A stretch of 64,000 bases of DNA from Synechococcus sp. PCC 7336 (lineage in GTDB: Bacteria; Cyanobacteriota; Cyanobacteriia; Thermostichales; PCC-7336), in the NCBI RefSeq assembly GCF_000332275.1, contig NZ_CM001776.1, forward strand, positions 3,966,008 through 4,030,007. Direction: 5' to 3'. Shown one piece after another: positions 41,623-48,251 of this stretch. The notes below the pieces were generated by a model. That model saw only the letters and a program-made list of their open reading frames with translations, was not told the DNA's origin and did not search any database. Made by a program: the position numbers and the translations under genes. Within the stretch, counting starts at the first letter, position 1; each line of letters opens with the position of its first letter.

Positions 41623-43503
41623 ATGTCTGTTGATTCAACCATCGTTCGTGCGGCTATTTATCCATCGATTGGGATTGCTCGGGTGGGTAACAGTAAAAAT
41701 GAATATTTTATTGGTCCAGAAATTTCTTGGCCCGATCGTCAACCTATCGGGTTTTACAAAGATACAACGGGTGCATTAAAGCGACAGGCAGCCCGCTTTC
41801 GAATTTATGGACTAAATGCCGACGATCGGGTTGTGCGGGAATTGACTGCTGATGAGGCCAACATCACTTGGACCGTTCATGTCGCCAATAAAAAATCTGC
41901 TTGGTATGAATTTGAAGAAGCGCTAGATTTACCCACCACAGCACCAGCCAATCGACGCAACGCCAATTTTACCGAGGAGAAAAGAGAGCAGCTAGCGATC
42001 GATCCCGGTCCCATTTCAATTTCTGGCAAGCAAAAATCGGGTATTGAGTATCGCTTTGATAACGGTACGTTCTTAGGAGAAGAAGTTTATCTGGGAGAAC
42101 TACAAACGGATGAAGTAGGCCGCCTCATTTTCTTAGGGGGGCATGGACTTTCTAAAACACCCTTTCCAAACAATCCGCCCACGACCTTTGCCAATAACAA
42201 TGGCTGGCATGACGACACATCTGACGGCCCCGTAACAGCAGAAGTCTTGTATAACAATCAATCACTGCCCGTCGATCCAGCCTGGGTTGTCACTGCTCCC
42301 CCCAACTATGCCCCGGACATCATCTCAGTCATCACAATGTGGGATGTCATGGAGGATACGTTCCAGACCGCATTTTTCCTCCCCAAAGCTAAGCCATCCT
42401 TTATGCAGGATATTTACCCATTGCTGCAGCAGTTCAGCATGTGTCAGTGGGTGAACTTTGGCTTTTATGTGGGATTTGGCTACAACCAAGCCTATGACTT
42501 CGAAAATAAAGATTACATTGCTAAGCTGGCCAATCCAGATCCGGTCTATCGAGAATATCGCCGTCAAATTTTCAACTATTTCCGTCCCCCCAATCCCAAA
42601 ACGATCGACTCCGAAGCTTGGCCCTGGATGTATGGAGACCGCGTCTCAATCCCGGCTGATAACCCCGATGCATTTCTGTCGGTCACGCCAACGCTCTACC
42701 GGTACCTACAGCTTTGGCTGCAGGGGGACTATATCAATGATTGGGAGCCCGATTTTGTTCCCCCCAACTCGATTGACGAGATTGTCGAGCCCGCTCGACA
42801 AGCGGAGGCAATCGACAAAGCTTCGCTGTGGTTCTGCTTGGGCGGCCCCTTCCACCCTGGCTGCGAACTGACCTGGCCAATGCGCAACACCTCACTCTAT
42901 TCCAGCCCCTTCCGCATTCGCCATCGATCGCCCAACGATCCCGAACCCGACTACGGCAACACCCTCACGCACGCAGCAGTCATGAGTTCCGACGGACCGC
43001 TCTACGCCCAATCTGCAGGGGATTTGACCCGCTGGATGGCAGTACCCTGGCAAACCGATACCGCCAGTTGTCGGGCGGGATACGACAAGAAGTACGATCC
43101 CTGGTTGCCCACGTTCTGGCCTGCCCGCGTGCCCAATCATGTCTTGACCCAGAAGTGCTACAACACTGTGATGGATCGAAATGCCTCGCGTGAGAAGCGG
43201 CTGGAGGCGTTCAATCACCGTGCCTCTTGGTACCGCCTCTTGGGTGAAGGCTATCTCAAGCAGGTGGCCAATGCGATCGATCTGTTCGGCGATCTGGGGG
43301 TGGTAGAACGTCGCGATGGCATTCCCAAAGATCCCGATTTTCCTGCAGTTATGTATGTTGAATCGGAACCCGGCGCACCCGGTGGCGACGCTGCAGAGGA
43401 GAAAGCCCAGGGTCTGAAAACCGACAAGAGCGCGGTGGATGATATTCCTGACAATTGCGGCATTTACGTCGGTCCAGTCGAGAAGGTAACCCGTAAAAAG
43501 TAG
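41623..43503 (+). CDS. LodA/GoxA-family CTQ-dependent amino-acid oxidase
   Basis: 626 residues from the ATG at 41623, after GAGAGGA; a TTG at 41569 is open but less likely. LodA-type enzymes are quinoproteins that oxidise amino-acid amines with a cysteine tryptophylquinone made from their own Cys and Trp. AAIYPSIGIARVGNSKNEYF and GPEI at the start, LWFCLGGPFHPGCELTWPMR, and DLTRWMAVPWQTDTASCRAG are family marks. Cys483 (TASCRAG) is the probable cofactor cysteine; Trp536 (RASWYR) is a candidate for the cofactor Trp. The next gene is the LodB-like maturase. The substrate (lysine, glycine or other) cannot be told. No complete GCGATCGC is present in the gene. Confidence 0.88.
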   Translation: MSVDSTIVRAAIYPSIGIARVGNSKNEYFIGPEISWPDRQPIGFYKDTTGALKRQAARFRIYGLNADDRVVRELTADEANITWTVHVANKKSAWYEFEEALDLPTTAPANRRNANFTEEKREQLAIDPGPISISGKQKSGIEYRFDNGTFLGEEVYLGELQTDEVGRLIFLGGHGLSKTPFPNNPPTTFANNNGWHDDTSDGPVTAEVLYNNQSLPVDPAWVVTAPPNYAPDIISVITMWDVMEDTFQTAFFLPKAKPSFMQDIYPLLQQFSMCQWVNFGFYVGFGYNQAYDFENKDYIAKLANPDPVYREYRRQIFNYFRPPNPKTIDSEAWPWMYGDRVSIPADNPDAFLSVTPTLYRYLQLWLQGDYINDWEPDFVPPNSIDEIVEPARQAEAIDKASLWFCLGGPFHPGCELTWPMRNTSLYSSPFRIRHRSPNDPEPDYGNTLTHAAVMSSDGPLYAQSAGDLTRWMAVPWQTDTASCRAGYDKKYDPWLPTFWPARVPNHVLTQKCYNTVMDRNASREKRLEAFNHRASWYRLLGEGYLKQVANAIDLFGDLGVVERRDGIPKDPDFPAVMYVESEPGAPGGDAAEEKAQGLKTDKSAVDDIPDNCGIYVGPVEKVTRKK

Positions 43504-43521
43504 CCGTTCGGAGGCCACTGG

Positions 43522-44643
43522 ATGAACGTTGAAGTCGCCATCATCGGTGGAGGACCGGCAGGGGCAGCGGCGGCACAGATTCTGGCATCTGCTGGCTGCA
43601 AAACGCTGCTAGTGGATGCTGCGAGTCCCAAACGCTTCAAAATTGGCGAAAGTTTGCTGCCTGCGGCACAGCGGCTGCTGGAGGATTTGGGGGCGGGCGA
43701 TCGCTTCTTAGCGGACAAGCATTTGCCCTGCTATGGCTATGCCTCGGCTTGGGGGTCGGCGGAGATCTACAGTACGGACTTTATCCGCTCGCCCCACGGT
43801 TATGGCTGGCATTTGGATCGCGCTCGCTTCGATGCGTCCTTGCGAGAGGCAGCAGCTGATGCTGGTGCAGTCTGCCAGTTTCAGATGGCTTTATCTCAAT
43901 GCAATCGCGTCAACGGAAGCTGGAAATTGCGCTTGACGGGTTCGGGAACAGGCGACACCATTACAGCGGAGTGGGTGTTTGACTGTACGGGCCGCAGCCG
44001 CAAAGTCGCACGCAGTTTGGGGGTCGAGGCACAGGATGGCGATCGCCTACGGGCGTTCTACGCACAGTTCCAGCCGATGCAGGGGAGGCCAGATCGGGAT
44101 GCGTTGAGTTCGATCGAGTCGGTACCGGAAGGATGGTGGTACACCGCAAAGCTACCGGGCGATCGCCGCATCGTGGCGTTCTTTACGGACGCAGATTCGG
44201 ATTGTGCGAGTGCAGCACGAACTGAGGCGGGGTTTCTGCAACTGTGCGATCGCACCATCCATCTCAAGCAGAAGTTGGCGGAGTTCGAATATGCGATCGC
44301 CACTAAGCCCCAAGGCACAGAGGCTGGCAGTTCTCGGCTGCAGTGCTTCCACGGCGAAGGCTGGATGGCGGTAGGAGATGCGGCCATGTCGTTCGATCCG
44401 CTGTCGTCACAGGGGATTTATACGGCTATGTATGGTGGAGTGAAAGCGGCGAGAGCATGGTTGGCTTGGCAAGGGGGCGATCGCGCTGCCTTAGACCATT
44501 ACGATGCCGCGCTTTCAGAAGTTTATCGACAGTACCTTCGCCATCGCTTGCACTACTACCAAATGGAACAACGTTGGCAAGCTAGCGCGTTTTGGGCTCG
44601 GAAGATGGCGGCAACGGGTTCTGTTGCCAATACGGTGTTGTAA
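43522..44643 (+). CDS. LodB-like FAD-dependent maturase
   Basis: 373 residues. N-terminal FAD-binding VAIIGGGPAGAAAAQIL, the FKIGESLLPAAQRLLEDL motif of the flavin halogenase/monooxygenase superfamily, and VGDAAMSFDPLSSQG as second FAD motif. In known LodA systems the partner flavoprotein hydroxylates the active-site Trp on the way to the quinone cofactor and must be encoded with the oxidase. The 18-bp gap to the LodA-like gene and a GGAGG before the ATG support one transcript. Unlike its neighbours it contains several GCGATCGC sites. Confidence 0.87.
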   Translation: MNVEVAIIGGGPAGAAAAQILASAGCKTLLVDAASPKRFKIGESLLPAAQRLLEDLGAGDRFLADKHLPCYGYASAWGSAEIYSTDFIRSPHGYGWHLDRARFDASLREAAADAGAVCQFQMALSQCNRVNGSWKLRLTGSGTGDTITAEWVFDCTGRSRKVARSLGVEAQDGDRLRAFYAQFQPMQGRPDRDALSSIESVPEGWWYTAKLPGDRRIVAFFTDADSDCASAARTEAGFLQLCDRTIHLKQKLAEFEYAIATKPQGTEAGSSRLQCFHGEGWMAVGDAAMSFDPLSSQGIYTAMYGGVKAARAWLAWQGGDRAALDHYDAALSEVYRQYLRHRLHYYQMEQRWQASAFWARKMAATGSVANTVL

Positions 44644-44826
44644 ACGGCGACTCTGAAGGTTCTCTCATAGAGAAGGAGAGCAGGAAATCTAGGAAGCAAT
44701 TTCCCCAATTTTTCCGCTCTCCAAGCATAGGAAAACTCTGTTAGCTGGGCATGGTTTGTAATTGGAGTCGTTAGTTCTGACAAGGACTCCTTAGCCTTCC
44801 AGCTACCGAGTGACTCGAAATGGAAG

Positions 44827-46149
44827 CTAGCTACCACGCTGCTTGACTATATCGTCAAAAATATGACTCAATCGGGTGCTCGCAGTTTCGTTAGGAGTGT
44901 AGTTATGGCAGGCAAAGCAGTTGACCCCATTATCTGTACTGGCCTGAATAGTAGAGTTGTTAATCGTTAAGGTTCCTTGAAAAGTTGTCTCCATAGTCGG
45001 GTTGGCAAGTTGCAATCCACCGCGTTGGTTGTCACTAGAAGCAGGCTGAGATGGATCGCTGACCCACAGCCCGCCAATGTTGAAGTAGTTTGCCATAACG
45101 GCCATCGGATCGCTGGCTGGAAGGCTGCTCAAAATCCCGTTAGGGCCAACCAGCTGTTCGTTCAAGGCATCAACATCGATGATGTTCTCCTCACCTTTGC
45201 TATCGCCCGGTGCTGTGCCTTCAGGAAAAATCCGACAGATCTCGCTGGGAGTCATGTCGGTTAGACTCATTGCGGGCTGCGCCTGATTGTACTGACAGGC
45301 ATCAAAACAACTTGAGTCGGGATTGGCCAGACAGTTACTGCAAGACTCAGATAAAAACGACCAATTATCCGCAGGGGGTGCAGCTGGGTTCAGGCAATTG
45401 GGCGCGTTGCTTTTATGCTCGTAGCTGGTCCACACCAGTTCGGGATGTTCTGGAGTACCGCGCACCAAATGATAGCCAACCATACCTAATGTTTCTTTAA
45501 TGGGCTCGCCATCTTCTGGAATCACATCTGCATCAATCCAAATGTAATCAGCTTTCTCCGAGGCATCGATGACCTTCCAAGACGTTTTAATCTCAGTGGT
45601 ATCGGTCGGCAAATTACCGCTGTCTGGTGCCGTACAGAGATCGCGTCCAAAGGCAATACTATAAAATACGACGTTGCCATTTTGGTCGTATATCGTTGCC
45701 CCGCCCCCTGCCTGACCGATGCGCTCGGGCAAAATGAACTCAGCGGCATCATCCGGATCTTTAACCATTCTGAGGAAGAAGACCGGCTCGGTAGAAGAGC
45801 TGCTGCAAGAGTCTTCGTCGATTTGCAAAATGGGATAATTTTGCGTGACTTGAAAATTACGCAAACTCGGATCGCTGCCAGAAGGCGACATCAAATAAAG
45901 AAACCACTGCCAGGAGAATTGATAAAACTGGCAAAAGTTTTGACCGCCACCGGGAATTTCGCTGGGTGGGTTGGGCTGAGTCACCCAATCTGCGCTCGCC
46001 ATGCATGTAGATGGGGTAGATGCTGCTTGCAGTATTTCTGTATTCGGAGTGGATGCCAGCCGATTGCTTTGACAGGCCGTCAAAAAACAGAGAGAAAAAA
46101 CACATGCAAAACAGATCGAGAAGAACCGAAATTTCTGTAAGAGCTTCAT
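44827..46149 (-). CDS. Lipoprotein with a single c-type haem motif
   Basis: 440 residues. Lipobox FLTAC with Cys26 as the acylated residue gives an exported, membrane-anchored protein. A single CxxCH (Cys411, Cys414, His415 in NCFACHNYTP) near the C-terminus is a covalent haem site. The body has FCQFYQFSWQWFLYLMSP and eight other Cys, several clustered around residues 255-280 (CSNC, CFDAC), which may form disulphides. The family is not known to me beyond its resemblance to 'cytochrome-like' hypothetical proteins. It converges on the LodA/LodB pair (183 bp apart) and shares their low HIP1 content. Confidence 0.75.
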   Translation of the reverse strand: MKLLQKFRFFSICFACVFSLCFLTACQSNRLASTPNTEILQAASTPSTCMASADWVTQPNPPSEIPGGGQNFCQFYQFSWQWFLYLMSPSGSDPSLRNFQVTQNYPILQIDEDSCSSSSTEPVFFLRMVKDPDDAAEFILPERIGQAGGGATIYDQNGNVVFYSIAFGRDLCTAPDSGNLPTDTTEIKTSWKVIDASEKADYIWIDADVIPEDGEPIKETLGMVGYHLVRGTPEHPELVWTSYEHKSNAPNCLNPAAPPADNWSFLSESCSNCLANPDSSCFDACQYNQAQPAMSLTDMTPSEICRIFPEGTAPGDSKGEENIIDVDALNEQLVGPNGILSSLPASDPMAVMANYFNIGGLWVSDPSQPASSDNQRGGLQLANPTMETTFQGTLTINNSTIQASTDNGVNCFACHNYTPNETASTRLSHIFDDIVKQRGS

Positions 46150-46742
46150 ATTAAATCGAGTATCCGCATAGAGTTAATAGCTAAGCAACTTAGGTACGAT
46201 TGGGATCTCCTCAGCAGGGCTGCTTATACTTATACATCGATAAGAGGCTCGCCCGAACAGCATTTCTTCAAGTCATTTGAATACAGTTACTGATACTGAA
46301 ACTTTTTATACATAAGATGATCTCACAGATCCTGCAGCCTATCGAGGATAGGACTATGGCTTACTCCTCTGGGCGATTGTACCCACCTACTGAGAATCAA
46401 GAATTTTAGGCTGCATCAAAAACACTTCCTGCAGCAATAATTTTCTTAGATAACCATATATCGTAGGGAAAAAGCATAAATACTTTGTTTTTGTAGTAAA
46501 AGTTTTGAATCTCCCTGAAAAATATTACCGTTTGTAATGTACGGGGTCATTAAAGCTGAAAATTGTCAGGACTAGAGACTCAAATTGGGGCTATCAGGGC
46601 CGAAATCAGCAATTCCCCCATCTCTTTGGCAGAGTTGAGCCTGTCGGGAATTGGGTCAGCTCAGATTGGGGTCGCCAAATTGCGGAGTCTTTCAGGGGCC
46701 AAATAGTGGCATCTTGAGATAAGAGTGTTAAGGAATGTAAAG
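46150..46742. other. AT-rich intergenic region, 593 bp
   Basis: Contains no credible gene, no complete GCGATCGC and several A/T runs. The right end carries AAGGA ten bases before the next start. It holds the promoters of the divergent lipoprotein and desaturase-like genes, but I cannot pick boxes with confidence. Confidence 0.4.
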
Positions 46743-48251
46743 ATGTCAGCGGACAATCCGAAGGTGGTTGTAGTGGGAGCCGGATGGGCGGGGCTAGGCG
46801 CAACCTACCATTTGGCCCGGCAAGGATACGATGTGACACTGCTGGAGGCTAGCCCCTATCCGGGGGGGTTGGCGGCGGGTTGGGAAACACCGGAGGGGCG
46901 CTCGGTGGAGGGAGGTATCCACGGGTTTTGGTATCCCTACAGCAATATCTTTGGCTTGGTAGGCGAACTGGGATTGCAGCCGTTCACACCCTTTACCCGC
47001 TCGTCCCAATATTCCCCCGCCGGCTTGGAGGTGGAGTCGCCCCTGTTTCAACACAAACAGCGCTTGCCGTCCCCCCTCGGCACCTTTCTCTACACGGATT
47101 TCAAACGGCTGCCCCCGAGCGATCGCCTTTCTGCCCTGCCCCTGCTCTACGCCATCATCGACTTCGATAACTCCGATGAGGCTTGGCGACGCTACGACTC
47201 CGTCACTGCGCGGGAACTGTTCAAACAATTTGGCGTTTCGGAACGGCTGTACAAAGAGTCGTTCGAGCCGATGTTGCTAGTGGGCCTGTTTGCGCCGGGA
47301 GAACAATGCTCGGCAGCGGCAGCGTTGGGGATGTTGTACTACTTCATCCTGGCCCACCAACCTGACTTCGATGTGGTTTGGTGTCGCGGCACGATTGGCA
47401 AGTGGATTTTCCAGCCTTGGGTCGATCGCATCGAGACAGCAGGGGGCAAGGTGCTGACCGAGCGGCGGGTCTCCGATTTGGTGTTGGACAAGCGCGGTCG
47501 AGCCAAAGCGGTGGTGTGTGGAGACGAGAGGTTTGACGCGGATGCCGTTATTTTTGCGGTCGGGATTAGCGGTATGCAGGCTATTGTCAGGGGCAGCGAG
47601 AGTTTGCGATCGCGACCAGAGTTTTTGGATGTGATGAATTTGCGATCGATCGATGTCATGGCAACGCGGTTGTGGTTCGATCGCAAGGTGGAGGTACCGC
47701 TGCCCTCCAATGCTTGTTTTGGTTTCGATCCCGCGACGGGCTGGACGTTTTTCGATCTCAACACCCTGCACGATGAATTTCGCGACGCACCGGGCACGGT
47801 TATCGAAGCCGATTTCTATCATGCCGATCGGCTCTTGCCCATGAGTGACGAGCAAATTGTACGCAAGGTCCAGCGAGATTTGACTACCTGCGTTCCTGGA
47901 TTTGGCGATGCGAAGGTGGTGGATTCCAGTATTATTCGAGTGCCGCGTGGGGTGACGCACTTTGCCCCCGGCAGTTACCAATACTTGCCTTCGGCTACCA
48001 CCAGTATCGAGAATCTGTTTATGAGTGGCGATTGGATTGCGAACCAACACGGTTCTTGGTCGCAGGAGAAGGCTTATGTGACGGGGTTGGAAGCGGCGAA
48101 TTTAGTCGTCGATCGCTTTGGCACAGGAGAACCTGCCCGCATCGTCCCGGTCGAGCCCGACGAACCTCATATTCAGGTGTTGCGATCGCTCAATCGCTCC
48201 GCGCGATCGTTTGCGAGGGACTGGCTGCCCAGTCTCGGCTGGCTGCCTTAG
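46743..48251 (+). CDS. FAD-dependent phytoene-desaturase-like oxidoreductase
   Basis: 502 residues. VVVVGAGWAGLGATYHLARQ and LLEASPYPGGLA are the dinucleotide-binding start of the amine-oxidase/phytoene-desaturase superfamily. GGIHGFWYPYSN follows, and the C-terminal NLFMSGDWI, then SQEKAYVTGLEAAN, matches the second FAD site of plant/cyanobacterial-type desaturases (CrtP/CrtQ). It is not clearly either, so a carotenoid desaturase paralogue is the best guess. The start is the ATG at 46743, ten bases after AAGGA; a GTG at 46725 is possible. Confidence 0.85.
   Translation: MSADNPKVVVVGAGWAGLGATYHLARQGYDVTLLEASPYPGGLAAGWETPEGRSVEGGIHGFWYPYSNIFGLVGELGLQPFTPFTRSSQYSPAGLEVESPLFQHKQRLPSPLGTFLYTDFKRLPPSDRLSALPLLYAIIDFDNSDEAWRRYDSVTARELFKQFGVSERLYKESFEPMLLVGLFAPGEQCSAAAALGMLYYFILAHQPDFDVVWCRGTIGKWIFQPWVDRIETAGGKVLTERRVSDLVLDKRGRAKAVVCGDERFDADAVIFAVGISGMQAIVRGSESLRSRPEFLDVMNLRSIDVMATRLWFDRKVEVPLPSNACFGFDPATGWTFFDLNTLHDEFRDAPGTVIEADFYHADRLLPMSDEQIVRKVQRDLTTCVPGFGDAKVVDSSIIRVPRGVTHFAPGSYQYLPSATTSIENLFMSGDWIANQHGSWSQEKAYVTGLEAANLVVDRFGTGEPARIVPVEPDEPHIQVLRSLNRSARSFARDWLPSLGWLP

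Follow-up and report, generated by a model that had tools for sequence, protein, structure and literature searches.

A LodA/LodB-type quinoprotein pair in Synechococcus sp. PCC 7336 is accompanied by a secreted mono-haem lipoprotein (hereafter LP) whose homologues recur beside lodA in other bacteria. We read the locus as a LodA/LodB pair served by a haem partner of its own outside the cytoplasm, a diverged protein of the cytochrome P460/c′-beta type that would act downstream of the peroxide made by LodA, a reading to which we give slightly less than even odds (roughly 0.45). Enzymes of the LodA family deaminate amino acids and release H2O2, and the H2O2 produced by LodA-type quinoproteins is antimicrobial and shapes biofilms.

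The window, by which we mean the whole stretch of 64,000 nucleotides that was analysed, holds the three genes at 41623-46149, where a preliminary description had seen a lodA/lodB pair converging on a lipoprotein with one CxxCH motif, and the arrangement is indeed present there:

41623..43503, + strand: LodA/GoxA-like CTQ-dependent oxidase, 626 aa, ATG at 41623 (PF17990, 2e-82; PF18417, 4e-38)
43522..44643, + strand: LodB/GoxB-like FAD maturase, 373 aa (NF038174, 3.5e-81; NF038171, 1.1e-70)
44827..46149, - strand: LP, secreted mono-haem lipoprotein, predicted to be P460/c′-beta-like, 440 aa (family alignments, AF2 model)

The lodB-like FAD gene sits 18 bp 3′ of the lodA stop codon, and in the sequence of the window the LodB-type and LP genes converge, their stops lying 183 bp apart. 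Since the complete 5.07-Mb genome bearing the window, whose closest LP relatives point to a cyanobacterium, encodes a single LodA and a single LP, and since the combination recurs elsewhere, their pairing here is more than chance.

The window oxidase matches LodA_N (PF17990, 277 bits, cut-off 26.3) and LodA_C (PF18417, 131 bits, cut-off 25), its best PDB matches are the PlGoxA and LodA structures, and alignment to PlGoxA places the cofactor residues:

43057..43059, + strand: Asp479, equivalent of the cofactor-site Asp (PlGoxA D678)
43069..43071, + strand: Cys483, the CTQ cysteine
43117..43119, + strand: Trp499, the CTQ tryptophan (PlGoxA W697)

Judged by its sequence, the protein belongs to the CTQ oxidases of the LodA/GoxA family, with CTQ and H2O2 release predicted. 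It misses the NCBIfam equivalog cut-offs for both LodA (213 of 600 bits) and GoxA (446 of 750 bits), so its substrate cannot be named. The best models for the LodB-like protein are the GoxB and LodB maturases, at 273 and 239 bits, which is below the equivalog cut-offs of 400.

Searches of Pfam, NCBIfam and the PDB with the window LP, as a single sequence and as a profile, gave no match to LP itself. Three features were placed on it:

46072..46083, - strand: lipobox LTAC, residues 23-26, with Cys26 predicted from the sequence to be lipidated
45586..45588, - strand: Lys188 in the EIKTSW motif, a candidate haem-cross-linking Lys (McP460 Lys78, NeP460 Lys70), marked by K-x-x-W conservation
44905..44919, - strand: CFACH haem c attachment site, residues 411-415, the sole CxxCH of LP

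Conservation of CxxCH in the family, which the preliminary description had put forward as a check, is complete: each of the 66 distinct intact homologues has exactly one such motif. The K-x-x-W motif (consensus GTxEIKxAW) is found in 65 of the 66, the remaining one having Arg. The earlier suggestion of a membrane-anchored haem partner fits the window protein, with its LTAC lipobox, but does not carry over to the family: export signals are general across the homologues, whereas the lipid anchor is not kept in all of them. With each species represented by a single genome, 28 LP loci were located, in cyanobacteria, Gilvimarinus, Pseudomonas, Pseudoalteromonas, Lysobacteraceae and others, and plasmid and whole-genome searches added LPs from Vibrio, Rhizobium, Bradyrhizobium, Xanthomonas and further genera.

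Adjacency that recurs independently makes the stronger case for an association of LP with lodA; the co-occurrence tests given below ignore phylogeny. Outside the window, 12 loci have LP directly 5′ of lodA-lodB and in the same orientation, which brings the linked loci to 13 when the window is counted, some of them being close relatives. Among the first 28 LP loci, lodA adjoins LP only in a Pseudanabaenaceae MAG (L005). A second LP subfamily forms the first gene of LP-lodA-lodB operons; these lie on plasmids of Xanthomonas sacchari and of Pseudoalteromonas xiamenensis, where a single base is shared by LP and lodA, and further such operons are found in Pseudomonas indica, PIC25, G586, G733, G783, G774, G673 and G709. 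A third kind of LP stands 5′ of a long-form lodA in G697. The LodA tree requires at least four changes of linkage to account for the linked loci: all ten sampled members of one clade are LP-linked, the clade's own fork being only moderately supported, and the window, the cyanobacterial MAG and G697 are separate linked cases outside it. The LP tree sets the LPs of the operons, that of G697 and those of cyanobacteria at different places, and because the cyanobacterial ones group beside Gilvimarinus, the tree suggests that LP has been transferred between marine bacteria.

LP is missing from the neighbourhood of most plasmid lodA loci in the sample, and solo LPs occur in Vibrio, on Rhizobium and Bradyrhizobium plasmids, and in some cyanobacteria. 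That LP is specific to lodA is ruled out by the many LPs in genomes or loci that lack lodA. The recurrent neighbours of solo LPs revealed no second cross-lineage partner: the recA/lexA region in Lysobacteraceae reflects lineage-wide synteny, and a YCF48-like gene recurs in Rhizobium and Bradyrhizobium. The association of LP with lodA that the preliminary description had proposed is upheld by operons (13 loci) and by genome co-occurrence, but the LP family is wider than this association and is also found without lodA.

A LodA is encoded somewhere in 17 of 27 other LP genomes, compared with 3 among 386 genomes drawn from the phylum to which the window belongs. The search for genome co-occurrence that had been proposed at the outset found LodA in 23 of the 28 LP genomes of Pseudoalteromonas and in 9 of the 11 of Lysobacteraceae. 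Across 60 Pseudoalteromonas genomes, 23 have both proteins, 5 LP only, 3 LodA only and 29 neither (Fisher 7e-9, kinship ignored); without the genomes found through LP the counts become 19/5/3/29 (p 1e-7), and stratification for genome size, again with ascertained genomes left out, gives p 8.5e-4. The GTDB family of a Lysobacteraceae genome, represented by 89 genomes, gives 9/2/1/77 in the same order (p 8e-10, kinship ignored), with p 5e-8 after removal of ascertained genomes and a size-stratified p of 1.4e-4. The control, tyrosinase, which is an accessory oxidase about as prevalent, shows no association with LP in the Lysobacteraceae genomes (3/8/9/69, p 0.17). The small class-level sample of Gammaproteobacteria yields p 0.065, and its sole double-positive genome has LP adjoining lodA; among cyanobacteria, an LP-superfamily gene is present in two of three LodA genomes (p 0.002, or 0.05 without the window genome).

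Mere co-occurrence in large genomes is ruled out by the size-stratified permutation and the tyrosinase control. It might still be argued that the two proteins have no direct biochemical link and belong to a shared accessory set of large genomes for secretion, biofilm formation or surface life, as LP without lodA is common and many LPs are unlinked to it. We consider this unlikely, given that the association withstands size stratification, that tyrosinase does not share it, and that adjacency recurs in separate LodA clades. The association of LP with lodA is real, and a functional association is supported.

Structure prediction points to what kind of haem protein LP may be. When the AF2 model of the window LP (27-row alignment, pLDDT 73, pTM 0.80) was compared with the PDB by VIA-align, the top 17 matches were all cytochrome P460 or c′-beta (Z 5.5-4.2), and the first unrelated structure scored 3.6. 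A second AF2 model, built for the shortest family member (L028, 29% identical, pLDDT 61), returned the same 17 of 17 (Z 5.0-3.6), with unrelated structures beginning at 3.5, and the P460 matches of both models span 114-143 residues. The first Foldseek match of the LP model is NeP460 (E 0.14), and the model runs from the Lys strand through a hairpin, the Trp strand and a long insertion to the CxxCH helix, an order that agrees with P460. At the sequence level, three family members weakly match Pfam Cytochrome_P460 (best E 8e-4); L003, an LP-like domain fusion, reaches 20.1 bits against PF16694, for which the gathering score is 27, none of the family members scored passes that cut-off, and the window LP gives no match. 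In hhalign comparison with the P460 profile, LP obtains a probability of 4-15%, which is not significant, the Lys being in register with A2. McP460 Lys78 (ILVKLSW) is aligned with the Lys of the LP EIKTSW motif in three weak alignments (hhalign A2, hmmsearch L003 and L076). An ordinary electron-transfer cytochrome c cannot be recognised in LP, for which cytochrome P460/c′-beta is the best match in structure and motif. Because no formal threshold is passed, we describe LP as P460-like and not as a member of PF16694. With fold and Lys register both predicted, we regard this remote assignment as probably correct, and a P460-like identity for a haem partner of LodA is new.

The known activity of cytochrome P460 is the oxidation of NH2OH, and the superfamily is known mainly from ammonia and methane oxidisers. 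With a P460-like fold, a candidate cross-linking Lys and ammonium released by LodA, LP could be imagined to act chemically on nitrogen species produced by LodA (NH2OH, NO or ammonia-derived species). This strikes us as quite improbable, since the LodA product is NH3 and not NH2OH, and since the distal carboxylate that NH2OH oxidation requires (PMC11928373) is not evident in LP. By eye, in a weak alignment, the position of that carboxylate (NeP460 Glu96, McP460 Asp102) falls near the invariant Gly222/Gly225 of LP; it seems not to be conserved, and the known NH2OH chemistry is therefore not predicted for LP.

In the peroxide-coupled arrangement that we prefer, LodB would mature LodA inside the cell, and LodA would oxidise an amine group to yield H2O2. 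LP would be exported by Sec, receive c-type haem at CxxCH and, at the window, be lipid-anchored; it would then encounter LodA or its H2O2 outside the cytoplasm, where this H2O2 might either install a Lys188-haem cross-link or be consumed at the LP haem. We infer the peroxide coupling, the Lys188 cross-link and any encounter between LodA and LP as the most likely course of events. With LP exported and its haem attached outside the cytoplasm, LP would be expected to meet LodA or its product there and not during CTQ formation. For M. mediterranea, LodA has been localised to the outside of the cell and LodB to its interior (PMC2855505). No N-terminal signal peptide is apparent by eye in the window LodA, so the meeting place of LodA and LP is assumed. 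These considerations bear on the suggestion that LP helps to build CTQ, a suggestion modelled on the part of dihaem MauG in making TTQ (PMC7876137) and favoured by the presence of a haem protein encoded with lodA-lodB. We hold this to be very improbable: LodB is intracellular whereas LP is exported, LP is absent near most sampled lodA loci, and LodB was reported to be needed for making recombinant LodA, with no mention of a haem protein.

Two roles had been offered in the preliminary description for the haem protein, passing electrons into a respiratory or surface chain and serving as a peroxide-related accessory, and the second fits better and is favoured here. The haem-Lys cross-link of P460 is peroxide-dependent in vitro, oxygen alone being insufficient; c′-beta has peroxidase-like activity, which cross-linked P460 lacks; and the potentials of P460 members lie between -340 and -424 mV (PMC11928373). 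It is because of these three properties, the need for peroxide, the peroxidase-like activity and the low potentials, that we favour a peroxide role over electron acceptance. The electron-acceptor reading, in which LP and LodA form a split quinohaemoprotein amine dehydrogenase that passes electrons from CTQ to haem and on to a respiratory or surface chain, is probably second best, although in itself unlikely. Strict conservation of the haem, operon linkage and the precedent of quinohaemoprotein amine dehydrogenase as a CTQ-to-haem system speak for it, as does the fusion of an LP-like domain to a TsdA-like dihaem cytochrome domain in some cyanobacteria, from which it follows that the LP-like domain works with electron-transfer haems. 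However, the characterised LodA-family enzymes are oxidases that release H2O2, with a haem partner unreported (PMC4699246, PMC3948610), and a potential of about -340 to -424 mV, if LP is P460-like, would make LP a poor acceptor for a quinone cofactor. There are also lodA genomes without LP, which makes LP dispensable to the LodA family as a whole.

Other haem or iron redox companions accompany lodA elsewhere, namely a mini-catalase-like N-terminal domain, Dyp peroxidase and ferritin-like proteins. Catalase domains fused to lodA have been described (PMC4417212), and catalase-fused LodA proteins are among the nearest sampled relatives of the window LodA on the LodA tree. It may be that several companions of lodA are interchangeable and that LP is among them.

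With a conserved, operon-linked haem partner, experiments can directly address where the electrons and peroxide of LodA go. Should LP prove P460-like, the superfamily would enter a new biochemical setting, and a biological source would be suggested for the peroxide that the Lys-haem cross-link needs in vitro. The boldest form of the proposal is that, from cyanobacteria to Pseudoalteromonas, peroxide from a CTQ oxidase builds or drives a Lys-cross-linked P460-type haem in a secreted partner. We think this rather doubtful, but if true it would be the first link between a cytochrome P460-like protein and amino-acid oxidation, as opposed to nitrification or methanotrophy.

Compared with LodA/LodB and GoxA/GoxB of Marinomonas mediterranea and Pseudoalteromonas luteoviolacea, the window shares LodA_N/LodA_C, the CTQ Cys, Trp and Asp, and a FAD maturase directly 3′; it differs in scoring below both equivalog cut-offs and in having a haem lipoprotein alongside. 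No partner of LodA beyond LodB, whether lipoprotein or cytochrome, is described in two surveys of the LodA family (PMC4417212, PMC4699246) or in the further literature covered, which took in few subscription journals. Quinohaemoprotein amine dehydrogenase (QhpA-C, CTQ plus dihaem) likewise combines a CTQ enzyme with c-type haem and a flavin maturase (QhpG-like), but the window LodA is not QhpC, LP has one haem and no radical SAM QhpD adjoins; no similarity of LP to Qhp subunits was detected, and neither the dihaem subunit QhpA nor the small CTQ subunit QhpC is represented among the three genes. With cytochrome P460/c′-beta, LP shares a beta-rich predicted fold, a single CxxCH near the C-terminus and export, and with cytochrome P460 a K-x-x-W Lys on a strand at the place of the cross-linking Lys, as a candidate in LP; unlike them, it has about 440 residues instead of about 150, an insertion of about 165 residues before CxxCH, a score short of PF16694, no evident distal carboxylate and, at the window, a lipoprotein form. 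Loci in which lodA is linked to catalase, peroxidase or ferritin share with the window a haem or iron redox protein fused to or adjoining LodA, with a different protein family in the role, and the Pseudanabaenaceae MAG combines a mini-catalase-like N-terminal region with an adjoining LP.

In some cyanobacteria, a domain resembling the mono-haem lipoprotein (LP) is found in one protein with a TsdA-like dihaem cytochrome (L003:994-2982, L002:940-2994, and also L108-L110). The fusion is a tri-haem protein of ∼680 aa, the dihaem part of which matches PDB 4wq7 (E 3e-29). The LPs of Pseudomonas (L009-L013) carry a mannan-binding MVL domain (PF12151) C-terminal to the haem motif, the presence of which suggests a surface or sugar contact. 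When compared by eye, the tail of the Oleispira LP (L019) resembles the C-terminus of these proteins.

Divergent from LP, positions 46725-48251 of the window encode an FAD-dependent desaturase/HpnE-like oxidoreductase, for which no equivalog cut-off was reached. In Rhizobium, LP genes that stand without lodA have a YCF48-like BNR-repeat gene after them (L077:7899-10782, L080:7920-10713), and a similar gene lies near the LPs of Bradyrhizobium and of G586, a genome bearing an LP-lodA-lodB operon. In another such genome, G774 (L154:3334-9631), LP paralogues flank the pair on either side in the order LP-lodA-lodB-LP.

Other haem or iron redox proteins are encoded at some lodA loci. A ferritin-like gene lies upstream in Azospirillum brasilense (L131:2332-5921), where it adjoins a di-haem oxidoreductase gene, and in Hymenobacter (L129:4480-5571); a Dyp-type peroxidase is encoded nearby in Mycetohabitans (L123:2220-3770). 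In the LodA of a Pseudanabaenaceae MAG, an N-terminal stretch of 350 aa (L005:11741-12800) is related to the mini-catalase PDB 3e4w (E 3.6e-5).
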